A stretch of DNA of 50,695 nt from positions 1 through 50,695 of the forward strand of contig CANQYB010000005.1 of assembly GCA_947627975.1 (NCBI GenBank), written 5' to 3'. A program made the translations under genes and the position numbers. Shown in pieces: positions 1,533-15,083 of the stretch; position 1 is the stretch's first letter, and each line of letters starts with the position of its first letter. Under the pieces are notes generated by a model that worked only from the letters and a program-made list of their open reading frames with translations, was not told where the DNA came from and searched no databases. This DNA comes from an uncultured Bacilli bacterium. GTDB lineage: Bacteria; Bacillota_I; Bacilli_A; RF39; UBA660.

Positions 1533-1584
1533 AAAGTAAATTAAAATATATATAGAATAATAAAAGAAAAAAGGGGATTTGCAA

Positions 1585-3591
1585 ATGGCAAAAAATGGTA
1601 AGGTTATTTGTGTATCATCTGCTAAGGGTGGCGTTGGAAAAACTATTTTTTCATTAAATTTAGCTGGTGTATTTGAAACATTAAATAAAAAAGTTTTATT
1701 AATTGATTTAGATTTAGCAGGTGGAGGAATAGCACTTGCTTTAGGTCGTGAATTTAAAAAAGATATTTATAATATTTATGAAGATTTAAATAATAATAAA
1801 TTTAATGATATTAATAATTATATTACTAAATATGATAACTATATTGATTTTATTGCCACATCAAAAGATCCTCGTAATTTAAAAAAAGTTGATGGAACAT
1901 ATCTTAAATATATATACGATTTATGTAGATACTATTATGATATTATTATTATAGATACAAATCATTTTTTAACTGATGCTAATTTAATAACAATGGATTT
2001 AGCTGATGAAATATTTTTTATGATGACAAATGATCCATTAGATGTTAAAAATATGAAATCTTTATTAAATATTTTTAAAGAACTTGATAAAGATAATTTT
2101 AAAATTATTTTAAATGATGCTATTGATCATTGTAAAAATTATTTTTCAAATTTTGATTTAAGAAATATAATTAATGCTAATATTGACTATACATTATCTC
2201 CAGCATCATATGTAAAAAATATTGATACTTTAATTTTAAATGGTAAAATTATTACTTTGCAAAAAAATTTTCAATCATCAAGAGATTATGGAATTTATTT
2301 AAAAATTGCCACAAATATTTTTGAAAAAGGGGAAAATAATATGAATAATAAAAGTTTAGCTGAAATTTTTGATGTAAAAAATAATAATAATTATATTAAT
2401 ACAACAGATTATAATGCATTTAAAGATAAAAAGTTATTAAATGAAATTAGAGTAAATATTATAAAAAGTATTTCACTTTTTAACGATGAAATTAATCAAG
2501 ATTTAATAAATGAAATAATTGAAAAAGAACTAAATAAATATGATTTAACTAACTTGGAGAGAAGTTATGTTTATAATTTAATTGATAATGAAGTAAATGG
2601 TAGTGGTCCTATTAGTGAACTTTTAAAAGATAATGCAATAACAGAAATAATGGTAAATGGGCCAAGTGAAATTTACATTGAAACAAATGGAGAAATAGTA
2701 AAAGATGAAAGTGTTTCTTTTATTGATGATAATCATATAATTAGAACAGTAAACAAATTAATTGAAGACACCAATATTACTTTAGATTTAGAACATCCAA
2801 TAGTTGATGCTAGGACAAAAGACGGTTCACATATAAATGCTATTATATCTCCAATATCTGTAAGTGGTCCAGTATTTACTATCAAAAAAATAAATAAAAA
2901 TATTTTAAATATTAATGATTTAATTAGACTTGGTACTTTAACCCCAGAAATGGCCAGATTTTTAGAAAAATGTGTAAAATCCAAATTAAATATTATAATA
3001 TGTGGTAATTCTGGGGCTGGAAAAAACACTTTACTTAACGTTTTGTGTAACTTTATTGATATCAATGAAAGAATAGTCACTATAGAAGATAATGCGTTTT
3101 TAAATTTATCTCAAAAAAATGTTATTTCCCTAGAAGAAAATAATATATCTAAAAAATATTCAAATACTAATTTAATTTCTTTAGCTAAAAAATTAAAACC
3201 CAATAGGGTTATAATTGGTGGAGTTACAAAGGAAAATACTTTTGATGTATTACATTTAATGAATAGTGGTTTTAATGGAACAATGACATCATTACATGTT
3301 GCTCAAATAAAAGATATAATTAAAACACTTTCAACCAATGTTTTATTTAATGGTAAAGATATTCCAATAAATCTCATCAAAGAATATATTTGTGAAGGTA
3401 TAGATTTAATAATATTTGTAGAAAAATTAAAAAATGGGCAAAGGAAAATAACTTCAATAAGTGAAATTATAAAAAAAGAAGATAATTATCAAATTGCCGA
3501 AATATTTGGATTTAAAAAAAGTAGTAATGAAAGTTTAGAAGAATTTATAACTCATAAAAGAATTCCAGATATTTTAAAAAAATTAAATTAA
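1585..3591 (+). CDS. CpaE/MinD-like ATPase fused to CpaF/TadA-like secretion ATPase
   Basis: A 668-residue two-domain protein. Residues 1 to about 250 form a ParA/MinD-type ATPase like CpaE/TadZ, with an intact deviant Walker A (KGGVGKT), a switch motif DLDLAGGG and a Walker B DIIIIDT. Residues about 253-668 match CpaF/TadA, the motor of Tad pilus or secretion systems, including GSGPI..LL, IMVNGPSEIYIE and TIEDNAFL. The motor active site is degenerate. Walker A reads GNSGAGKNT, with Asn where Ser/Thr is expected after the lysine. The Walker B region reads IIGGVTK where the family has VGEVRG, so the catalytic Glu is missing. ATG 1585 follows AAGGGG well; TTG 1579 is too close. An internal start lies at 2341. 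The tadB-like and tadC-like genes follow. The family call is firm, but ATPase activity of the second domain is doubtful. Confidence 0.85.
   Translation: MAKNGKVICVSSAKGGVGKTIFSLNLAGVFETLNKKVLLIDLDLAGGGIALALGREFKKDIYNIYEDLNNNKFNDINNYITKYDNYIDFIATSKDPRNLKKVDGTYLKYIYDLCRYYYDIIIIDTNHFLTDANLITMDLADEIFFMMTNDPLDVKNMKSLLNIFKELDKDNFKIILNDAIDHCKNYFSNFDLRNIINANIDYTLSPASYVKNIDTLILNGKIITLQKNFQSSRDYGIYLKIATNIFEKGENNMNNKSLAEIFDVKNNNNYINTTDYNAFKDKKLLNEIRVNIIKSISLFNDEINQDLINEIIEKELNKYDLTNLERSYVYNLIDNEVNGSGPISELLKDNAITEIMVNGPSEIYIETNGEIVKDESVSFIDDNHIIRTVNKLIEDTNITLDLEHPIVDARTKDGSHINAIISPISVSGPVFTIKKINKNILNINDLIRLGTLTPEMARFLEKCVKSKLNIIICGNSGAGKNTLLNVLCNFIDINERIVTIEDNAFLNLSQKNVISLEENNISKKYSNTNLISLAKKLKPNRVIIGGVTKENTFDVLHLMNSGFNGTMTSLHVAQIKDIIKTLSTNVLFNGKDIPINLIKEYICEGIDLIIFVEKLKNGQRKITSISEIIKKEDNYQIAEIFGFKKSSNESLEEFITHKRIPDILKKLN
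2327..2343 (+). promoter_or_regulatory. Internal ribosome-binding site and ATG inside the CpaE-CpaF fusion
   Basis: The run AAGGGG (2327-2332) lies eight bases before an in-frame ATG at 2341, exactly at the junction between the CpaE-like and CpaF-like halves. Initiation here would give a separate CpaF-like protein of about 416 residues, close to the usual CpaF length. The site looks like the retained start of a gene that was once separate. Its use is inferred, not shown. Confidence 0.5.
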
Positions 3592-3615: not shown

Positions 3616-4611
3616 ATGAATTTAAAATTTTTATTATTAATTATTATTACTCTTTTTATAATTATATTTTTATTTATTAATTTTTTAAATGTAAAAAAAA
3701 TTAATAAATATGAAAAAAGATTTGCTCTTTTTTCATTTCATAATGAAAAAGAAAAAAGATTAACTTTATTAAAAAAAATTAAATTTTATATAATTAAATT
3801 TGTAAAATTAAATTCTTCATTTTTAAAATTATTTAAAATAAATAAATTTTATGCTAAAAAATATCAAAAACTTGAAATAGAAAATAGTATAATGCAAGAT
3901 ATAGATTATGTATCACTAAAATTAATAATTGGTATTTTATTTTTAATTTTATCTTTTATTTTAAATTTATATAATATACTACCTAAATCATTATTATTAA
4001 GTATTTTTCTTTTTCTTTTTGGTTTTAATATATTAGATTATATTTTGTTCTTTTACTATCGTAAAATAAAAAAATCATTAAATAATAATTTATACAAAGC
4101 AATATGTCTTTTATGTGATAATTTAGAAACTAAAAATTTTATAAATTCTATTCACGATATAATTTCTGATTTATCTGGACCAATTAAAAATGAATTTAAA
4201 ATTATATATAAAAAATTAAAAAGAGGAATAACAGTAGATGAATGTTTTATAAATTTTTATGAAAAATATAAATTAAAAACTTTAAATGATATTAAATTAT
4301 TGTTAATTTTAACTGATGATAATACAGTTAATTATAAAGAGTTATTTCTTCAAATTAAAAATAGATTAGAAGAAAAAGAAAAATATAAAAAGAGTAATTA
4401 TTTTATTAAAAAAATGTCCTCTTTATTATTTTTAATATTCTCCATTTTGCCAATTGTATTATCTATAATTTTGCTTTTAGTAAAAAAGACGTATTTTGAT
4501 GTTTTTTTTAAAAATTCATTTGGGTTAATAATATTTATAATCATTCTTCTTTTATATATTGTTTATATAGGTTGTATTAAATATATGATTGGAGATGATG
4601 AATGTGAATAA
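3616..4611 (+). CDS. TadB-like (type II secretion F family) membrane protein
   Basis: A 331-residue inner-membrane protein in the position of TadB, the platform protein that partners the CpaF motor. There is one N-terminal membrane segment (about residues 3-25), a pair at about 100-150, a cytoplasmic stretch resembling the GspF/T2SSF domain (about 155-255, with NNLYKAICLLCDNLE and ISDLSGPIKNEF), and two C-terminal segments. It lacks sharp catalytic motifs, so the call rests on topology, length and its place between the CpaF-like and TadC-like genes. The site AAAGGAG stands about 11 bases before the ATG. Its 3' end overlaps the next gene, which implies translational coupling. Confidence 0.7.
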   Translation: MNLKFLLLIIITLFIIIFLFINFLNVKKINKYEKRFALFSFHNEKEKRLTLLKKIKFYIIKFVKLNSSFLKLFKINKFYAKKYQKLEIENSIMQDIDYVSLKLIIGILFLILSFILNLYNILPKSLLLSIFLFLFGFNILDYILFFYYRKIKKSLNNNLYKAICLLCDNLETKNFINSIHDIISDLSGPIKNEFKIIYKKLKRGITVDECFINFYEKYKLKTLNDIKLLLILTDDNTVNYKELFLQIKNRLEEKEKYKKSNYFIKKMSSLLFLIFSILPIVLSIILLLVKKTYFDVFFKNSFGLIIFIIILLLYIVYIGCIKYMIGDDECE

Positions 4612-5203
4612 AAAGGTATTACTTTTAAGAATTTTTTTAAGTTTATTAATTTTAATTTTACCAGTTTTTATTACAGTTTATAATATAATTTTTTCTAGTA
4701 TTTTAGCTATATGTTTTTTTATATTTTCAAAAATGATTTATTTAAAATTGTTGAAAAATTTCAAAAAAAATAACTTAGAATATCAATCTTATTTTTTCAT
4801 TATTTCTGTTTATATAAATTTAAAAACAAGTAGTATATTAGATTCTTTAAATTATGCATCATCACATATAAAATGTGATTTATCTAATTATTTTAAGATT
4901 TCTTTAAAAGAAATTAACAATGGGCTATCATTTAATGAAAGTTTTGAAAATTTAAAAGCAAAATTTGATTTACCTTATTTAATAAGATTTATTGATATTT
5001 TAATTTTATATACTAATAATAAAAAAACCCTCTTAATTAAATTAAAAGAACTTTGTAAAGATTTAGAAAAAGAAAATGTTTTAAAAGAAAATAGTAGAAT
5101 TAAAAAGTTACCAATAAATGTAATAATTTTTTCCTTCCTTTTTATAATACCAATTATAATCTTGTTAATTATAACGCCATTAATTATTGAAAAATTTATT
5201 TAG
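4604..5203 (+). CDS. TadC-like (type II secretion F family) membrane protein
   Basis: About 199 residues with two N-terminal membrane segments, a central soluble region (about 55-165) and a C-terminal membrane segment. This is a shortened TadC/GspF-like layout; the central part (INNGLSFNESFENLKAKFDLPYL, read in two pieces) resembles the T2SSF repeat. It overlaps the tadB-like stop codon. The start is ambiguous. GGAG at 4591-4594 is nine bases before GTG 4604 but only three before ATG 4598, so I prefer GTG 4604; ATG 4598 would add two residues. TadB and TadC normally act together as the membrane platform for the CpaF ATPase. Confidence 0.65.
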   Translation: MNKKVLLLRIFLSLLILILPVFITVYNIIFSSILAICFFIFSKMIYLKLLKNFKKNNLEYQSYFFIISVYINLKTSSILDSLNYASSHIKCDLSNYFKISLKEINNGLSFNESFENLKAKFDLPYLIRFIDILILYTNNKKTLLIKLKELCKDLEKENVLKENSRIKKLPINVIIFSFLFIIPIIILLIITPLIIEKFI

Positions 5204-5237: not shown

Positions 5238-5756
5238 ATGAAAAATAAATCAGATAAAATATTTATATTTATTATTTCATTAATACTTGCTTCAAGTATT
5301 GTAACAACTTATGCCTTTTTTAATGCAAATATTTCTGGCAATGTTACGACTAAAAATATTAATGCCAATACTGTAAATATAGAATTACAATATTCTGAAA
5401 ATGATCCAACAATTAATGTTAGTGATATTCTTCCTGGATGGACTGGAAGTAAAACTATAAAAGTTATCAATAATGGGGATATTGCAGTAAATTATAAATT
5501 AGTTTGGCAATCTTTAACAAATAATTTTGACAATAATTTTGTTTATTCTATAAATTGTTCAAATAATTGTTCTGGATTATCAGAAACTTTTGTACCTAAA
5601 AATGGTAGTAATTTAACGATAATTAATAATATTTCAATTTCAGCTCATACTACCCAAACTTATACTATTTCTTTTAGTTTTAAAGAAACAAATACCGATC
5701 AAAGTGCTAATATTGGTGCAAGTTTTACAGGAACGCTTGGTATTTTAGAAATATAA
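5238..5756 (+). CDS. Secreted TasA/camelysin-like protein with SipW-type signal peptide
   Basis: A 172-residue exported protein. It has a basic N-terminus, a hydrophobic stretch (about residues 8-25) and then TYAFFNANISGN, the pattern of SipW-dependent signal peptides found in TasA and camelysin-type proteins. The mature part is Asn/Ser/Thr-rich and probably beta-sandwich. It contains the family-like phrases DILPGWTGSKTIKVINNGD and a closely spaced Cys pair (CSNNC). The ribosome-binding site GAAAGGG lies before ATG 5238. It follows the Tad-like genes by 34 bases and ends just before a hairpin, so it is probably the last gene of their operon. No SipW-type peptidase is seen beside it; the only signal peptidase in the window is at 47.4 kb. 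It could be the substrate of the Tad-like apparatus, or simply a Sec substrate. Confidence 0.7.
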   Translation: MKNKSDKIFIFIISLILASSIVTTYAFFNANISGNVTTKNINANTVNIELQYSENDPTINVSDILPGWTGSKTIKVINNGDIAVNYKLVWQSLTNNFDNNFVYSINCSNNCSGLSETFVPKNGSNLTIINNISISAHTTQTYTISFSFKETNTDQSANIGASFTGTLGILEI

Positions 5757-5837
5757 AAATATAATGTTTTAAGTTTTATTTAATAATATTTAACCAAAGT
5801 AAAATATATAATATTATTAAAAAATATGTAATTTTAG

Positions 5838-5862
5838 AAAATGTTGCTTATGCAACATTTTT
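5838..5862 (+). terminator. Hairpin terminator (or operator) between the Tad-like cluster and pflB
   Basis: A perfect 10-base-pair inverted repeat, AAAATGTTGC and GCAACATTTT, with a four-base loop and a short T run. It most simply ends the preceding operon. It is also a symmetrical palindrome just upstream of the pflB promoter region, so an operator role cannot be excluded. Confidence 0.6.
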
Positions 5863-5876
5863 ATATTTATTATATA

Positions 5877-5885
5877 TGCTATTAT
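5877..5885 (+). promoter_or_regulatory. Candidate extended -10 promoter for pflB
   Basis: TGCTATTAT has the TGn extension followed by TATTAT, and it sits 16 bases before the pflB ribosome-binding site GGAGG (5901-5905). No good -35 element is visible, so this is a modest-confidence call. Confidence 0.4.
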
Positions 5886-5910
5886 TTTAATACATAATGT
5901 GGAGGTAAAG

Positions 5911-8142
5911 ATGAAAAAAGAGTGGAAAAATTTTAATGAGGGTCTATGGTGTAAAGAAATTAATGTAATTGATTTTATAAAAAGTAATTATTTAAAATAT
6001 GATGGCGATGAAAATTTTTTAACTGGTAAAACTGATAAAACTACAAAAGTTTGGCAAAAATGTGAAAAGCTATTAAAAGAAGAATTAAAAAAACATGTCT
6101 TAGATATTGATGTTGATCATATGTCTGGTATTAACTCATATGATCCTGGATACATAGATAAAGAAAATGAAGTTATTTATGGTCTTCAAACAGATAAACC
6201 TTTAAAAAGAATTGTTAATCCTTATGGAGGAATTCGAATGGTTTATCAAGAACTTGAAACATATAATTATAAATTAAATAAAAATGTTGATAAATATTTT
6301 AATGAATTTAGAAAAACTCATAATGATGGAGTATTTGATGTATATACAAAAGAAATTCGAAAAGCAAGACATGTTGGTTTATTAACTGGGCTTCCAGATG
6401 CCTATGGTCGAGGAAGAATTATAGGTGATTATCGAAGAATTCCTTTATATGGTATAAATTATTTAATGAAATTAAAAAAAGATGAATGGGAAAATATGGA
6501 AATAACTGAAATGAGCGATGATATAATAAAACTTCGTGAAGAACTTTCCATGCAATATAAAGCTTTAGATGAAATAAAGAAAATGGCCTCTTCATATGGA
6601 TTTGATATTTCTAACCCAGCAAAAAATTCTAAAGAAGCAATTCAATGGTTATATTTTGGCTATTTAGCGGCTATTAAAGAAAATAATGGGGCAGCAATGA
6701 GTTTAGGAAGAGTGGATGCTTTTTTAGATATATATATTAATAGAGATTTAGAACATGGCTTAATAACAGAAAAAGAAGCACAAGAATTAATTGATCAATT
6801 TGTAATAAAATTAAGACTTGTAAGACATTTAAGAACTTTAGAATATGATGAATTATTTTCTGGAGATCCAACTTGGGTTACATGTTCTATTGGTGGTTTA
6901 ACTTCAGAAAAAAATAGTTTAGTAACTAAAACTTCATATCGAATACTGCATACATTAAGTAATTTAGATCCAGCTCCTGAGCCTAATATGACAGTTTTAT
7001 GGTCAGAAGAATTGCCAATAAATTTTAAAAAATATTGTGCTAAAATGAGTATTTTAACTGATGCTATACAATATGAAAATGATGATTTAATGCGTCCTTC
7101 GATGGGAGATGATTATGCAATTGCATGTTGTGTTTCCTCTATGCGTATTGGCAAAGATATGCAGTTTTTTGGAGCAAGATGTAATTTAGCAAAAGCTTTA
7201 TTATATTCAATTAATGAGGGAGTTGATGAAATAAAAAAAGATTTAGTAATACCTAATGTGCCTAAAATTAATGATGAAGTTCTTAACTATAATAAAGTAA
7301 AAAAATCTTATTTTAAAGTTCTGGAATATGTTGCTAAAATTTATAGTGAAGCAATGAATATTATTCATTATATGCATGACAAATATGCTTATGAAGCTGG
7401 GCAAATGGCCTTACATGATACTAATGTAAATAGATTAATGGCATATGGTGTTGCAGGGCTTTCCGTAGTAGCTGATTCCCTTTCAGCTATAAAATATGCT
7501 AAAGTAAAGCCTATTAGGGATAAAGATGGTATTACAGTTGACTTTGATATTACTGGTGATTATCCAAAATATGGTAATGATGATGATAGAGTAGACAATA
7601 TTGCCAAAGAAATTTTAAATAAATTTTATAAAGAATTAAAAAAACATAAATGTTATAAAAATGCAACCCCAACAATGTCTGTATTAACTATTACATCAAA
7701 TGTTGTATATGGTTTAAAAACTGGAGCAACACCAGATGGAAGAAAAAAAGGAATACCTTTTGCTCCTGGTGCTAATCCAATGCATCAAAGGGATTTAAAT
7801 GGTGCAATTGCTTCATTAAATTCCGTTTCTAAACTTGATTGGGAAAAGTGTTGCAAAGATGGTATTTCCAATACTTTTTCCATAATACCAAGTGCTTTAG
7901 GTAAAAATCAAGAAGAACAAATAAATAATTTAATTACATTAATGGATGGATATTTTTCTAAAAAAGCTCATCATTTAAATGTTAATGTTTTAAATAAAGA
8001 AACTTTAGTTGATGCTATGGAAAATCCTTCAAAATATCCTTTATTGACAATAAGAGTTTCTGGTTATTCTGTAAGATTTAATCGACTTACGAGAAAACAA
8101 CAAGAAGAAGTTATTTCTAGAACTTTTCATGAGAAAATATGA
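5911..8142 (+). CDS. pflB: Formate C-acetyltransferase (pyruvate formate-lyase)
   Basis: A 743-residue glycyl-radical enzyme that converts pyruvate and CoA to formate and acetyl-CoA in anaerobic fermentation. The two catalytic cysteines are adjacent in the motif IACCVSS (Cys406, Cys407). The C-terminal glycyl-radical loop [10 protein letters not shown] places the radical on about Gly718. The length is normal for the family. ATG 5911 is preferred over the upstream GTG 5899 because GGAGG lies five bases before it. The stop overlaps the start of pflA in ATGA, so the enzyme and its activase are translationally coupled. Confidence 0.97.
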
Positions 8143-8861
8143 AAAAAAGTGGATCAATAAATAGTATAGAAACTTTTGGTCTTGTAGATGGTCCAGGAAT
8201 AAGAACAGTTATTTTTCTTAATGGTTGTATTTTAAGATGTAAATATTGTCATAATCCAGAAATGTGGACTATGAAAGAAAAAAATTATACAGTAAAAGAA
8301 GTATTAACTATAGTTAAATCAAATAAACCTTATTATAAAAATGGGGGTGGAGTTACATTTTCCGGTGGAGAACCACTAATACAGGTTGATTTTTTAAAAA
8401 AACTTTGTTCTAAATTAAAAAAAGAAAAAATTAATATTGCAATTGATACATCTGGAATTAGCTATAAAAATTATAAAAAATTATTTAAATATATTGATAT
8501 TGTCCTTTTAGATATTAAACATATTAATAAAGACGATTATATAAATATTACTTGTAAAAATGAATTTTCTAAATTTTTAAAATTTGTAGATGATCTTAAT
8601 AAAACAAATATTGAGGTTTGGATTAGGCAAGTTATTATTCCAGATGTTAACGATAATAACAATTATCTTAAAAATTTAGCTAATTTTATTAAAAATAATA
8701 TAAGGAATGTAAAAAGAATTGATTTTTTACCATATCATAAATTAGGAAAAGAAAAATATAGGACTTTAAATATAAATAACTTATATAAAGATAAAGAAGA
8801 AATGAATAAAGAAAAATGTGATGAATTATACCAAAAATTTTTAAATTATTATAATAATTAA
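8139..8861 (+). CDS. pflA: Pyruvate formate-lyase activating enzyme
   Basis: A 240-residue radical SAM protein that installs the glycyl radical on PflB. The [4Fe-4S] cluster motif CxxxCxxC is seen as CILRCKYC (Cys30, Cys34, Cys37). It is preceded by the typical opening [19 protein letters not shown] and followed by [11 protein letters not shown], which binds S-adenosylmethionine. The length matches the family. It starts within the last codons of pflB (ATGA overlap) and is followed by a T-rich hairpin terminator, giving a two-gene operon. Confidence 0.96.
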
Positions 8862-8897
8862 TTTTTGAATTAAATTTATTGCATATTTAAAAAAATT

Positions 8898-8931
8898 AAA
8901 GTAAAAAAAATAATTTTTACTTTATTTTTTT
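8898..8931 (+). terminator. Terminator after pflBA
   Basis: Inverted repeat AAAGTAAAAA and TTTTTACTTT with a six-base loop, followed by a run of T. The stem is A+T-rich with only one G-C type pair per side, so it is weak but well placed. Confidence 0.6.
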
Positions 8932-8976
8932 AATTAAATTAATTTTATTGCAACTAGTAAATATCTAAATAATTAT

Positions 8977-8982
8977 TATAAT
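8977..8982 (+). promoter_or_regulatory. TATAAT -10 box of a possibly leaderless transcript
   Basis: A perfect TATAAT ends six bases before the helicase ATG at 8989, so transcription would begin at or next to the start codon. No Shine-Dalgarno sequence lies in front of that ATG. A -35 element at normal spacing is not evident (TTGCAA at 8948-8953 is too far), so the assignment is tentative. Confidence 0.45.
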
Positions 8983-8988
8983 ATACTT

Positions 8989-10392
8989 ATGAATAGTGAA
9001 ATATGTGGTTATAAATTAGATAAAAACCAAAAAGATGTTATTTTTAATAATGCAAATAATATTTTAGTAATTGCTGGTGCAGGTTGCGGAAAAACATTGA
9101 CAATTGTTGGTAAAATTAAATATTTATTAAATATTGGTTATAAAAGTGATGAAATACTTTGTATATCATTTACTAACGATTCAGTTAATAGTTTGAAAAA
9201 TAAAATTAATAAATGTTTTTCTAAAAAAATTAATATTGAAGTATTAACATTTCATAAATTAGCTTTAAGTATTTTAAAAGAAAATAATATTAATTTTAAT
9301 ATTGTTGATGATAAATTGTTAATATATATTATAGACGAATTTTTTTTAAAATATTATATTAACAATCCACTATTAAAAAAAATGATAAATAAATATTATA
9401 ATGTGAAATTTTTAAAAAAAATTATATATAGATTTATTAGTAATTTTAAATCTAACAATTTTGAAATAAGTGATTATTTTACTTTTTTTAATAAAAATAA
9501 TTCTAAAATTAATTTATTTTTATCAATAACTTTATTTATATATGTTGAATATGAATTAGAAAAAAAATCACAAAATTTATATGATTTTGATGATATTATT
9601 ATTAATGCTAAAAATATATTAAAAAACAAATTTAAAAATTTTAATTATATTATAATTGATGAGTTTCAAGATACTTCTTTAATTAGATTACTATTAATTA
9701 AAAAAATTGCTCAAGTTAATAATGCTAAATTAATGATGGTAGGTGATGATTTTCAATCAATATATAAATTTAGTGGGACAAATATTCAGTTATTTTTAAA
9801 CTTAAATAAATATATTGATAATTTAAAAATTATGTTTTTAGAAAATACCTATCGATTTAGTAAAGAACTGGCCTATATTTCTAGTACTTTTATTTTAAAA
9901 AATAAATATCAATTTAAAAAAAATTTACATTCTAATAAAATTAATGCTAAACCAATTAAATTATATTATTATAAAAAATATAATGAATTAGATAAATTAG
10001 TAAAATATATAAAAAATGATATTTTAATTTTAGGAAGATATAATAAAGATATAGATGTTTTTTATAAAACAGATAAAAATGGTTATATAAAAAATAATTT
10101 AAGATATCTAACAGTTCATAAATCTAAAGGCTTGGAATGTGAAGAAGTAATAATTATAAATTTAAAAAACGATATTTTAGGTTTTCCCTCTAAATTAAAA
10201 AAAGAAAAAGAACTTTCATATGTTACTAATAATGATTTAATAAAATTTGATGAAGAAAGAAGGCTTTTTTATGTTGCTTTAACAAGAACAAAAAATAATG
10301 TTTATCTTTTTGTATCTAAAAAAAACCAATCAATATTTGTAAAAGAAATTAAAAAAAAATATAAAAAGTATATTGAAATTTTAAGACTTTAA
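8989..10392 (+). CDS. Compact UvrD/Rep-like SF1 DNA helicase
   Basis: A 467-residue superfamily 1A helicase, much shorter than UvrD/PcrA (about 700 residues). The SF1A motifs are present in order: Walker A GAGCGKT (near residue 30), Ia-like ISFTNDSVNSLKNKI, TFHKLA, Walker B IIIDEFQDTS, motif III VGDDFQSIYKFSG, YRFS, TVHKSKGLECEEV and VALTRTK. The missing length is mostly in the 1B/2B insert domains. It probably unwinds DNA in repair, though the specific pathway is unknown. There is no ribosome-binding site, and a TATAAT box ends six bases before the start, so the mRNA may be leaderless. Its 3' end overlaps gerAB by 12 bases in convergent orientation. Confidence 0.85.
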   Translation: MNSEICGYKLDKNQKDVIFNNANNILVIAGAGCGKTLTIVGKIKYLLNIGYKSDEILCISFTNDSVNSLKNKINKCFSKKINIEVLTFHKLALSILKENNINFNIVDDKLLIYIIDEFFLKYYINNPLLKKMINKYYNVKFLKKIIYRFISNFKSNNFEISDYFTFFNKNNSKINLFLSITLFIYVEYELEKKSQNLYDFDDIIINAKNILKNKFKNFNYIIIDEFQDTSLIRLLLIKKIAQVNNAKLMMVGDDFQSIYKFSGTNIQLFLNLNKYIDNLKIMFLENTYRFSKELAYISSTFILKNKYQFKKNLHSNKINAKPIKLYYYKKYNELDKLVKYIKNDILILGRYNKDIDVFYKTDKNGYIKNNLRYLTVHKSKGLECEEVIIINLKNDILGFPSKLKKEKELSYVTNNDLIKFDEERRLFYVALTRTKNNVYLFVSKKNQSIFVKEIKKKYKKYIEILRL

Positions 10393-11460
10393 TATTTTTT
10401 TTATTTTAATTGATAAGGCAATAATGATTATTAAAATTAAAAAGCAAATTCTTATTATTGGTGCTATATAATATGTATAATAATTAAAAATAGTTATATT
10501 TTTAAATAATAAATTAGTTGTTAAAGTTATAGCAAATAAAATAATTATTGGTAATAACTTAGATTTATTATTTGGTTTAATCAATGTATTAATATTATAT
10601 ACACAAAAGGAAATTATAATAAATAATCCAAATATCCACTGCATTGAAATTAAATTCTCAATTCTATCAATAAAATTAAATATTTCAATTCTTTTTAAAA
10701 CAATATATTCTGGATATTGATATAATTTAGTAAGATTAATACCTAAGTTTCCAAGTGTAACTAGTGTTATTATTAATATAATAATACATCCAAGTAAGTA
10801 GGATAGCAATGTATATTTATTATATTTTTCTTTGTTTTTTATTTGATTTTTAGGTATAATTAAAGTCAAAAATAAAGGTACAAAGTTGAGTAAAAATATC
10901 CTTATTCCACCATTTATTGTTTTTTTATATCCAAATTCTAATATAGGTTTGTAATTATTAATTTCAATATTAGGTAGTAATCCCAAAATAGAAAAAATTA
11001 CAAATATTAAAGAAATAAAAAACAATATCAATGATGTTCTTGAAATAGTTTCTAAACCTTTTATATTAATATAAATTATTGCAATACTAAAAATTATTTC
11101 AATAGCTATTACTGGTGTTTCAGATAAAAATTGTGTAACTATAAAATGACCTAAATTAAAAATTAAACTAATAGATGTAGATGCAACAAATAAAATTAAT
11201 AAAACATTTATTATTGTTCCCATTTTTTTACCATATAGATGTATTACTTTTTCTCCAATAGTTAAATTTTTTTTATAATTAGCAATATAAATAATTAAAA
11301 AGAAAATTATAAATGATAAAATAGTTGTATTAATAATACTAATCCAGGCATCTGTTTTTGCAGATTTAAATACATTATAAATTCCTATTCCAAAAAAAGA
11401 TGATATAATTATAAAAATATTTAAAGAAAAAAGTTGCATCATACTAATTTTATTTTTCAT
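10381..11460 (-). CDS. Spore germinant receptor permease subunit, GerAB family
   Basis: A 359-residue integral membrane protein with about ten hydrophobic segments, of the GerAB/GerKB amino-acid-permease-like family. In spores this subunit lies in the inner membrane and binds the germinant. A family-like stretch YIVLKRIEIFNFIDRIE precedes the seventh or eighth helix. The site AAAGGAAAT lies before ATG 11460. It is the last gene of the operon (order AA, AC, AB), three bases after the gerAC stop codon. Its 3' end overlaps the opposite-strand helicase gene. Confidence 0.88.
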   Translation of the reverse strand: MKNKISMMQLFSLNIFIIISSFFGIGIYNVFKSAKTDAWISIINTTILSFIIFFLIIYIANYKKNLTIGEKVIHLYGKKMGTIINVLLILFVASTSISLIFNLGHFIVTQFLSETPVIAIEIIFSIAIIYINIKGLETISRTSLILFFISLIFVIFSILGLLPNIEINNYKPILEFGYKKTINGGIRIFLLNFVPLFLTLIIPKNQIKNKEKYNKYTLLSYLLGCIIILIITLVTLGNLGINLTKLYQYPEYIVLKRIEIFNFIDRIENLISMQWIFGLFIIISFCVYNINTLIKPNNKSKLLPIIILFAITLTTNLLFKNITIFNYYTYYIAPIIRICFLILIIIIALSIKIKKILKS

Positions 11461-11463
11461 ATT

Positions 11464-12639
11464 TTATTTCCTTTCTGGTGTATATAAAGTATTACCTTTT
11501 TCTAAAGTTTCAATTTTAACAGATATATTAAAATTAATTTTTTGATAAAATTTATCCCAATTTTTAATACTTTTATAGTATTTTGGATCATTTTTATAAA
11601 TTATATCTTCCAAACCAAATATATCAGATTTATATTTTTTTTGAACTTTTGTCAAAGTTTTTTTAATATTATTTTTAATATTTTTTTCTATTTCAGACCT
11701 TAATTTTTTAATTTCCTTTTTAGAATTTAAATTAATATTACAAGAACTTTCATTAACATTAGCATTTCCAACTACTTTAATAGATATATTATTTTTGTTA
11801 TTTGAAATTTTAGTTTTAGAAGTAGTAATTTCTGAGGATACTAATCCATTTTTTGAACATTTGGTTGTTATTATAGTATTTTCAATATTATTTAAAATAA
11901 AAGAGTAGGCAATGGATTCTTGTTCAGTTAAATATCCAATTAATTTTTTATTTTTAAAAACTGCTATTGAAGATATTTTGGAATCAGCAATATTTTTGAC
12001 TTTTTCTAAATTTTTGGTACTATCACTGTTTTTATTTTCATTTATTATGACAACTGAAGGAATTGATACTTCAATTTTATCATTTAAAAGATTATTTATA
12101 ATATCTTCAAAAGTTATTTCATATCCTATTCCTAAATATTTAGTATTAGTTTTTAATGATTCTCTTATATTAGTTGAGTTTATAGTTTCAAGAGGGGTAA
12201 GAGTAGTTAAAATGTTATTAGCTGTTGTATTTTTGGAAATTAATGTTAAAAATTTCATTTGAATTTCAGGGTCTCTTGTAAAAAAATCAATATATTTTGT
12301 TATTCCTTCTTTAGCACATTCTTCACTAATAACTAATATTTGCATTTGAGTTGCAAATAGTCTTTTTGGTGAAGATAATATAACTTTTCTTATAGCTTCT
12401 TGAACAGTTTTATCAGTTGATTCATATGTTATAAATTTGGCATTTGTATTTGATTGAGATGAATCTGAACTTTCTTTTTTAGAACTGATTACTTGTATGG
12501 TTACTTTTATATTACCATTCTTGGCTTTGTCTATTCCTATAGCTGATACAATTGATAATTCATTTAATTCTCGATAATTATAACATCCACATAATGTAAA
12601 CAAAATTATTAATAATGTAAGTATTTTAATTTTTTTCAT
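11464..12639 (-). CDS. Spore germination lipoprotein, GerAC family
   Basis: A 391-residue Ger(x)C lipoprotein. The N-terminus is a lipoprotein signal with lipobox LCGC, which would acylate Cys19. It is followed by the conserved family opening YNYRELNELSIVSAIGIDK. I start at ATG 12639 because GGAGG lies five bases upstream; the ATG 12 bases earlier overlaps that site. The start lies inside the end of gerAA (14-base overlap), implying coupling. With gerAA and gerAB it makes the A, B and C subunits of a germinant receptor on the spore inner membrane. Confidence 0.92.
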   Translation of the reverse strand: MKKIKILTLLIILFTLCGCYNYRELNELSIVSAIGIDKAKNGNIKVTIQVISSKKESSDSSQSNTNAKFITYESTDKTVQEAIRKVILSSPKRLFATQMQILVISEECAKEGITKYIDFFTRDPEIQMKFLTLISKNTTANNILTTLTPLETINSTNIRESLKTNTKYLGIGYEITFEDIINNLLNDKIEVSIPSVVIINENKNSDSTKNLEKVKNIADSKISSIAVFKNKKLIGYLTEQESIAYSFILNNIENTIITTKCSKNGLVSSEITTSKTKISNNKNNISIKVVGNANVNESSCNINLNSKKEIKKLRSEIEKNIKNNIKKTLTKVQKKYKSDIFGLEDIIYKNDPKYYKSIKNWDKFYQKINFNISVKIETLEKGNTLYTPERK

Positions 12640-14023
12640 TTTGTCCTCCATTAGTTGAATTTAGTTTTATAATACTATCTTTTAATTCTTTTTTATTTAT
12701 AGGCGAAAAAGGTTTAAGATATGGAACACCAAATGATTTTAAAGATGATAGATGAATAATTAAAATTAAAAATACTATTAAAACACCAATTATCCCAATT
12801 ATAGTTGCTCCAATCATAAAAAATATTCGCCAAATTCTTAATGCATTAATTAATTCTGGTTCGGTAAAAAGTAGTGAAGATATAGCAGTAATTGCTATTA
12901 CAATTATCATTATAGGTGATACTATTCCTGCATTTACAGCTGCATCACCTAAAATTAATGCTCCAACAATTGAAAGAGCACTTCCTGAAAATCCCGGAAC
13001 TCTCAAATCGCCTTCTCTTAAAATTTCAAAACATATCATCATTAAAATTGCTTCGAAAAAAGCTGGAAAAGGAACGCCATCTCGTTGAGTTGAAAAATTT
13101 ATTAAAAGATCAGTAGGTAACATTTCTTGATTAAATGTAATAATAGCAATATATATAGCTGGAACTAATAAGGCAATAAAAAAAGCAAATAATTTTAAAA
13201 TTCTTGTAAATGTGACATTAATACTTTTACCATATACATCCTCTGAAGTTTTAAAAAAATCATTTAAACATGATGGTAAAATTAAAACATATGGGCAATT
13301 GTCAATTACAATTACTGTTTTTCCAGAAAGTAATGCTAAAACTGCAATATCTGGTCTTTCTGTTGTTCTAACAGTTGGAAAAACACTTTTATTTTCTTTT
13401 TCAATATTATTTTTAATTTCTCCAGAATTAACAATATCTTCAATATTTAAATTTTCCATTTTTTTTAAAATCATATTATAGGATTCTTTATGCACTTTAT
13501 CACTTAATGATAATACTCCTATTTCAGATTGAGTATATTTTCCTTTATTATAATTTTTAATTCTCAGTTTATTACTTTTAATTCTTCTTTTAATTAAGCC
13601 AATATTTGTTTGATATATTTCTGTAAAGGCATCTTTTGCTCCACGATAAGTATTTTCACTTTCTGGTTTATCTATACTTCTTGATAAATCTCCTTTAGTT
13701 TCTAAGGCTAAATACGTGGAAATATTATCAATAATAATTATAGTAAATCCTGAATGTAAATATTTACATATTTCTTGATAAGTAGTTATTTCTTGAACTT
13801 TATTATTACTAATATTATTTTTGATTTTTTCTAAAATATTTTTTTTATTAACTTTTTTTATTTTATTTAAACTTCTAATAATAAAATCACTAATTTTATC
13901 ACTATTTGTTAATGATTCAGAAAATACAATATAGGTAGTAATTTTGGATATAATTTTTTTTCGATATATAATATCTTTCATTTCGTCAGTATCAGTTTTT
14001 AATTTTTCAATTATTTTATTCAT
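12626..14023 (-). CDS. Spore germinant receptor subunit A, GerAA family
   Basis: A 465-residue GerA-family protein with a soluble N-terminal half and a C-terminal membrane half. Family motifs include YRGAKDAFTE (usually RGPREGFTE), VRTTERPD, GKTVIVIDNCPYVLILP, GVPFPAFFEAILM and EILREGDLRVP. The site AGGTGA is five bases before ATG 14023, so the GTG at 14032 is not needed. It heads the operon gerAA-gerAC-gerAB, a subunit order like that of B. subtilis gerK. Upstream, on the minus strand, a CATnnTA-type sequence (14045-14051) could be a sporulation sigma factor -10 box, but this is weak. Confidence 0.93.
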   Translation of the reverse strand: MNKIIEKLKTDTDEMKDIIYRKKIISKITTYIVFSESLTNSDKISDFIIRSLNKIKKVNKKNILEKIKNNISNNKVQEITTYQEICKYLHSGFTIIIIDNISTYLALETKGDLSRSIDKPESENTYRGAKDAFTEIYQTNIGLIKRRIKSNKLRIKNYNKGKYTQSEIGVLSLSDKVHKESYNMILKKMENLNIEDIVNSGEIKNNIEKENKSVFPTVRTTERPDIAVLALLSGKTVIVIDNCPYVLILPSCLNDFFKTSEDVYGKSINVTFTRILKLFAFFIALLVPAIYIAIITFNQEMLPTDLLINFSTQRDGVPFPAFFEAILMMICFEILREGDLRVPGFSGSALSIVGALILGDAAVNAGIVSPIMIIVIAITAISSLLFTEPELINALRIWRIFFMIGATIIGIIGVLIVFLILIIHLSSLKSFGVPYLKPFSPINKKELKDSIIKLNSTNGGQNEKN

Positions 14024-14100
14024 TTGAATCACCTAATCTAATATTATTATGTATTTATTTTGTTTATTTATTTATTTTGATATCAATTTGTAAAAAAAAA

Positions 14101-14109
14101 TGTTATAAT
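14101..14109 (+). promoter_or_regulatory. Extended -10 promoter of the gdpP-like/rplI/dnaB operon
   Basis: TGTTATAAT is a perfect TGn-TATAAT box, 17 bases before ATG 14127. No good -35 element is seen at the normal spacing. It fits the extended -10 class seen repeatedly in this window. Confidence 0.65.
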
Positions 14110-14126
14110 TAAATAGGTGAAAAAAT

Positions 14127-15083
14127 ATGAGAAATAGAGCAGAAATAATATTAAAAAAAATAAAAAAATCTAAAAATATTTTTATAATGGGTCATAAAAA
14201 TATTGATTTAGATGCTTTAGGAGCATGTGTATCTATTTCTTCAATATGTAAAAAAAATCGTCGAAAATCTTATATAATTTTGCAAGATTCAAAATATGAT
14301 GAATCAATAAAAAAAGCTATTGAATATTTAAAAGAAAAAAGCAATTTCATATTTTTAAAATATAAGGAAGCTATTGAGCTAGTTAATAGTGAATCACTTT
14401 GTATAATTGTCGATACATACAGTGAAAGAAGATGTCAATCATTTAAATTATTTAATAAAATAAAAAATAGATTAATAATTGATCATCATCTTTTTGGTAA
14501 GCCAATTAATAATGATTATATTATTGATACTAAAGTTTCATCTACTTGTGAACTTATTTTAAAAATATTTAAAAATAAAAAAATAAAATTTGATAAATAT
14601 ACTGCTACAGTAATGTTGGCAGGAATAATTATTGATACTAACAATTATAGTATTAAAACTACTCCAAATACTTTTGATTCAGCGAAACTTTTATTGAAAT
14701 TAGGTGCTGAAAATACTATTGCTCATGGTTTTAATAAAGTTAATATGGAAGAATATCAAAAAATTCAAAAAGTTATATTTAAAACTGAATTTTATAAAAA
14801 AAAGTATGCTTTTGTTAAATGTGATAGTAAAAAAATATATGATCGAGAAGATTTAGCAAAAATATGTGATACTTTACTTATGTTTGAAAATGTTGAAGTA
14901 GCATTTGCAATAGGATTTGTTAATAAAGATGAAGTAGGTTGTAGTGCTAGAAGTGTAAAAGAAAATGTCGCAGATATAATGTCTAAATTCGATGGAGGAG
15001 GTCATAAATTTAATGCCGCCTGTCAATTAAAATCTATTACACAAAATGAATTAGTTAAAAAAATAAAGGAGGTTTTAAAATGA
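14127..15083 (+). CDS. Stand-alone DHH-DHHA1 phosphodiesterase, GdpP-like
   Basis: A 318-residue DHH/DHHA1 phosphoesterase. Metal-binding motifs are clear: [12 protein letters not shown] (His23, Asp27, Asp29), VDT near 97, DHH (Asp119-His121) and the C-terminal GGGH (Gly290-His293). It directly precedes rplI and dnaB, as gdpP (yybT) does in Bacillus, and GHKN.D.DALGA is like the DHH core of GdpP. However, GdpP has N-terminal membrane helices and PAS and GGDEF-like domains, and none of these are present here. It is probably a soluble c-di-AMP phosphodiesterase, but the alternative is a generic NrnA/Pde2-type enzyme acting on pApA or nanoRNA. The stop overlaps the rplI start (ATGA). Confidence 0.8.

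Follow-up and report, generated by a model that had tools for sequence, protein, structure and literature searches.

A CpaE-CpaF gene fusion with a degenerate CpaF active site in a pilin-less Tad locus of an uncultured Bacilli bacterium

For the Tad (type IVc) pilus machine of Caulobacter, a cryo-ET model puts six dimers of the ATPase CpaE in a ring that surrounds a hexamer of the motor ATPase CpaF (PMC13170226). An N-terminal receiver-like domain has been reported for C. crescentus CpaE and for E. rectale TadZ (PMC13170226). The active-site residues of C. crescentus CpaF have also been described, and the E357A substitution abolishes its function (PMC11300603). A literature search returned neither a CpaE-CpaF (TadZ-TadA) fusion nor a CpaF pseudo-motor, a weak negative that covers part of the literature.

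The window analyzed here is a stretch of 50,695 nucleotides (contig C5) from a source genome of 1.06 Mb in 48 contigs that is 94% complete (G000). It contains a single open frame of 668 codons, from the ATG at 1585 to the TAA at 3591, with cpaE first and cpaF second (Table 1). Residues 6 to 170 of the product match the AAA_31/ParA/MinD families of Pfam, residues 338 to 584 match T2SSE (PF00437, 108 bits), and residues 265 to 638 match the solved CpaF chains 9e24 and 8rkd with an E value of about 1e-58. An earlier reading of this DNA, made from the letters alone and called the sequence-only reading below, had described CpaE-like and CpaF-like ATPases in one 668-codon frame, and the open frame and the domain matches confirm this. 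An AlphaFold model of the fused protein (mean pLDDT, 78; pTM, 0.50) has two folded domains, with fold matches to ParA/MinD and to CpaF 8rkd. A helix at residues 233 to 246 is predicted in the CpaE half at the junction, a candidate for the C-terminal amphipathic membrane helix of CpaE/TadZ proteins, and the junction itself (residues 250 to 253) is modelled with low confidence.

The first half resembles CpaE/TadZ proteins of the MinD/ParA family in its intact deviant Walker A motif (KGGVGKT), in its position directly before cpaF, and in the MinD/ParA fold of the model. It differs from them in having about 252 residues, no stop before CpaF, and no N-terminal receiver-like domain; its P-loop begins at residue 14, near the N terminus, and therefore there is no space for such a domain ahead of it. 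The second half is like CpaF/TadA of C. crescentus (8rkd and 9e24) in sequence, in fold, in its N-terminal and RecA-like domains, and in adjoining the genes for CpaE and TadB/TadC. It is unlike that protein in that the Walker A Thr, the ASP-box Glu, the Walker B Glu, R223, R347, and R359 are replaced, and the system as a whole is unlike the Tad system of C. crescentus in that CpaF is fused behind CpaE in a genome without Flp and TadE pilins.

Table 1. Features of the fused gene and its downstream neighbors in the window
Feature	Positions	Strand	Basis
AAGGGG ahead of the fused gene, ribosome-binding-like	1571..1576	+	Sequence; pairing energy, -8.0 kcal/mol
MinD-type ATPase half (CpaE/TadZ-like), codons 1-252, with an intact P-loop, SAKGGVGKT	1585..2340	+	Pfam AAA_31, 8e-16; 79% identity with G001 cpaE; dN/dS, 0.165
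Internal AAGGGG, ribosome-binding-like, kept from the cpaF start	2327..2332	+	Sequence and pairing energy; AGGAGG in the same place in G001
CpaF-like half, codons 253-668 (CpaF fold, degenerate active site, putative pseudo-motor)	2341..3591	+	PF00437, 108 bits; catalytic residues replaced; 51/137 family-invariant residues lost
Walker A region, GNSGAGKNT in place of canonical GGTGSGKTT, with Asn481 at the Thr288 position	3004..3030	+	Sequence, alignment
ASP-box Glu312 equivalent, now Phe505	3097..3099	+	Match to solved CpaF chains, residue mapping
Walker B Glu357 equivalent, now Gly546	3220..3222	+	Match to solved CpaF chains, residue mapping
TadB/CpaG-like platform protein, fast-evolving, dN/dS 0.50	3616..4611	+	Weak T2SSF match, E 0.04; position
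TadC/CpaH-like platform protein, fast-evolving, dN/dS 0.64	4589..5203	+	T2SSF, E 0.001
TasA/camelysin-like secreted protein, putative link to the locus	5238..5756	+	PF12389, 22.5 bits; TIGR04090, weak

The genus consists of two genomes, and the fused state comes from one genome assembly. In the sole other genome, G001 (public contig CANRDL010000004.1, uncultured Bacilli MAG Lapin-026), the corresponding sequence is 74% identical to the fused gene over its whole length, and the two ATPases are encoded by separate genes that share a frame: cpaE ends in TAA, 3 nt follow, and cpaF then begins with an ATG that has AGGAGG ahead of it. A contig search for further strains of the source species returned only this sister contig. 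The family search gave a match in 214 of 386 genomes, and among the full-length matches listed a junction without a stop was found only in G000; none of the 64 other genomes with readable junctions, the sister counted, has a fused cpaE-cpaF. In these 64 a short overlap of the two genes, of a few bases, is usual (median gap, -1), and in 14 they share a frame, with a stop and 3 to 15 nt ahead of the cpaF start. A phylum sample of 392 genomes contained 17 with a match, none of them otherwise fused. The split pairs of the family (e.g., those of G001, G017, and G030) resemble the fused gene in the order cpaE-cpaF-tadB-tadC, in a homologous cpaF start, and in a cpaF ribosome site that lies inside or past the end of cpaE; they differ in the stop between the genes and, in most cases, in a canonical CpaF with flp, tadE, and tadF upstream.

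With all 64 other junctions split, that of the sister among them, the cpaE stop has been lost recently and the old start of cpaF left in place. Comparison thus shows that the two genes were fused in frame, at the level of the species, through loss of the cpaE stop codon, and the simplest history places that loss in the G000 lineage after the split of the two species. The sequence-only reading had proposed two genes minus the stop between them and had suggested a comparison of fused and split forms in related genomes. Its proposal holds up well, with the sister split in the same frame by TAA and 3 nt and all other relatives examined split.

Numbered as in C. crescentus, the CpaF half carries the substitutions T288N, E312F, R347K, E357G, R359T, and R223H (N481, F505, K536, G546, T548, and H416 of the fused protein) and retains K287 (K480), R217 (R410), and H382. 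These were read from a residue scan of both plus and minus strands and from an alignment in which same-frame relatives were entered as full-length read-through rows. Thr288 of Walker A is the position that binds Mg in P-loop proteins in general; Asn at this position is common only to the fused protein and its sister, all other sampled CpaFs having Thr or Ser. The sister CpaF has the same catalytic changes, except for Asn at R359, and therefore the decay of the motor is older than the fusion. Among the lost family-invariant residues, 31 of 51 have the identical letter in the sister, and therefore most of the losses predate the split of the species. The ATPase domain is hit harder, with 41 of its 85 invariant residues lost compared with 10 of 52 in the N-terminal domain (P = 0.001). 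The sequence of the CpaF half is thus not that of a working motor, and the assumption of two working Tad ATPases in the sequence-only reading does not stand: the catalytic residues are missing from this half, as are Flp and TadE pilins from the genome.

The canonical relatives have flp, tadE, and tadF immediately upstream of cpaE. Here the locus is preceded, in place of pilin genes, by a FAD-dependent oxidoreductase-like gene. The major pilin Flp and the minor pilins TadE and TadF are absent from both G000 and G001, and relatives searched identically have them. The T2SSF matches of the TadB- and TadC-like proteins fall under the curated cutoffs, and the place and order of the genes are right; the sister tadC is missing about 49 N-terminal residues. 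The TasA/camelysin-like gene lies directly 3' of tadC in both genomes of the genus and has a dN/dS of 0.62.

Both genomes also encode a second Tad-like system (L036 in G000:C8, positions 7004 to 14895, and L040 in G001:C2) with an intact CpaF-like ATPase, a CpaB/RcpC-like protein, platform proteins, and small prepilin-like proteins starting MKEATGELNMTVI. It is followed in L036 (14904-15887) by a 328-amino-acid protein that by eye looks like CpaE/TadZ, has a degenerate P-loop (KNITDNAGATTL), and has no match in Pfam. The second system is like the window system in its CpaF- and TadB/TadC-like genes, has a CpaB-like gene as well, and is otherwise its reverse: its CpaF is intact and tightly conserved (dN/dS, 0.075), whereas the P-loop of its CpaE-like protein is degenerate.

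Degenerate CpaF proteins are found elsewhere in the family. All eleven residues checked are present in 49 of the 69 CpaF sequences examined, a sample enriched for low scorers. Strongly degenerate CpaF occurs in 13 genomes (G000/G001, G254/G144, G152, G107, G380, G070, G122/G241, and G197/G064/G292), and on a CpaE tree of 65 rows this distribution takes six changes, at least five of which are forced by well-supported branches. None of the 13 has Flp and none has TadE; among genomes with canonical CpaF, 13 of 14 have Flp and 14 of 14 have TadE. The mildly altered CpaF genomes G025, G034, and G137 are also without Flp. As judged from these sequences, pilin loss and CpaF degeneracy recur together in the family, with at least five origins. 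Because some of the genomes are incomplete, single absences are weak, but the overall pattern is not. The P-loop of CpaE is intact in 64 of 67 sequences; of the three exceptions, two are partial sequences. In G060 and G193, a weak Flp-like gene was seen on a separate contig.

The explanation that we favor, with a probability of about 0.5, is that the fused gene, joined by loss of the cpaE stop, belongs to what remains of a Tad system without pilins and encodes a MinD-type ATPase to which a CpaF pseudo-motor is tethered. The fusion arose in a Tad locus already without pilins and CpaF catalytic residues, both of which absences are common to the unfused sister. The CpaE half is most likely a MinD-type ATPase with a nucleotide switch and membrane binding, and the CpaF half would be a CpaF-shaped scaffold that is unable to hydrolyze ATP, keeps its N-terminal domain, and perhaps still touches the TadB/TadC platform. 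ATPases of the MinD type can bind the membrane and leave it again in cycles; here such a cycle would bring the CpaF-shaped body to the membrane or to the platform, with no pilus work involved, and the fused protein would position or organize a membrane complex and not drive a pilus. The stoichiometry counts against this explanation, since a fused protein would give a CpaE:CpaF ratio of 1:1 or lower, which departs from the model of six dimers round a hexamer (PMC13170226).

If the CpaE-CpaF pseudo-motor is functional, the role of CpaE is separable from pilus assembly, which would be of use in the study of a protein that is ubiquitous in Tad systems but has a clear role only in localization. Pilins and CpaF catalysis have been lost together repeatedly while CpaE was kept, a natural experiment on how the Tad parts depend on one another. 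A broader version, which we consider doubtful, is that Tad cores in which pilins are missing, the MinD-type CpaE is intact, and CpaF is catalytically dead reflect recurrent, selected remodelling into a non-pilus membrane-positioning complex, with at least five origins in the family; the fusion would then fix the CpaE-CpaF pairing and may even serve the second Tad-like system of the genome, whose CpaE-like protein has lost its P-loop.

The main rival to the tethered pseudo-motor is slow decay, which we regard as a serious possibility: the locus would have lost its pilins, then motor catalysis, then the platform, and the stop loss would have been harmless in a fused protein without a function of its own. 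Between G000 and G001, the dN/dS is 0.165 for cpaE, 0.22 for cpaF, 0.50 for tadB, and 0.64 for tadC, compared with 0.08 for the upstream gene and 0.05 to 0.08 for the second Tad-like system, so that the window cpaF is at about three times the value for the intact second CpaF. The membrane parts are therefore under much weaker constraint, and with the truncated sister tadC they fit decay, as do the small genome and what look like later stages elsewhere: a shortened tadB and no tadC in G152 and G107, cpaE and cpaF only in G070, and a cpaE with an intact P-loop and no cpaF in G060 (L110) and G193 (L111). If the locus is decaying, this still suggests an order of loss, with pilins and catalysis at the start, then the platform, and CpaE last. 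However, values well under 1 for cpaE and cpaF indicate that constraint persists after the loss of catalysis, although less than in a working system. In several lineages, cpaE and cpaF are still full open frames after that loss, with degenerate CpaF at 0.11 to 0.36 compared with 0.01 to 0.16 for canonical CpaF, values taken over different distances and with synonymous sites partly saturated. The retained CpaE P-loop and the better-kept N-terminal domain of CpaF also speak against simple decay. A non-catalytic role and slow decay both fit these data; we lean to the non-catalytic role, since several lineages have preserved both the open frames and the N-terminal domain.

The start of the old cpaF gene is still recognizable within the fused frame. 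The sequence-only reading had placed AAGGGG eight bases before an in-frame ATG at 2341, and these positions are correct. The pairing energy of this site is equal to that of the cpaE start at 1585 (a standard anti-Shine-Dalgarno sequence is assumed here and below), and among 178 internal in-frame ATGs of window genes it is one of two that are equally strong. The fused frame with AAGGGG-N8-ATG exceeds chance. The ATG at 2341 and the start of the sister's cpaF are homologous. That it is the retained ancestral cpaF start is supported because 64 of 64 split relatives carry a ribosome-binding-like site before cpaF. Continued use of this start is likely, and because the old ribosome site and ATG persist, some free CpaF-like protein is probably made besides the fused protein.

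A stronger claim, that the gene gives two products, fused and free, in a ratio that is set by the internal site and that matters, appears unlikely to us. The site does match the gene's own start in strength and is almost unique among internal ATGs, and internal starts that yield full-length and short partner proteins are known, as described for SpaO (PMC13059759). However, the site is simply the ancestral cpaF start, whose retention in one genome shows no selection, and it is weaker than the sister's site (-8.0 versus -11.9 kcal/mol). A further strong internal ATG, at 6238 with GGAGG ahead, lies within a pyruvate formate-lyase-like gene of the window and is probably due to chance.

An assembly or base-calling error, with the genes truly split as in the sister, is very unlikely: there is a single assembly, in 48 contigs, and the junction is rich in A and G, with 3 nt of difference between it and the sister's, but the frame is clean over 2 kb on either side and base runs at the junction are just 4 to 5 long. 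A working Tad pilus with the two ATPases joined into one motor polypeptide is rejected as highly improbable, since, although both domains and a TadB/TadC platform are there in canonical order, the catalytic residues are replaced, Flp and TadE pilins are missing from the genome, and the platform is weakly constrained.

Two further observations concern Tad loci of relatives. A DUF192 gene adjoins the Tad locus at L037:6156-6464 (tested against Pfam) and, by eye, at L038:3872-4213, L100:74-403, and L107:7892-8221; it is retained in G254/G144 despite pilin loss, and a DUF192 gene has also been reported beside the Tad locus of Bulleidia extructa (PMC12786226). The Tad locus of G035 (L041) has two genes, at 5550-6962 and 9080-10594, whose products have type IV prepilin-like N termini (KKGFTLVELLAVI) and which sit between tadB and cpaF and between cpaE and tadF.
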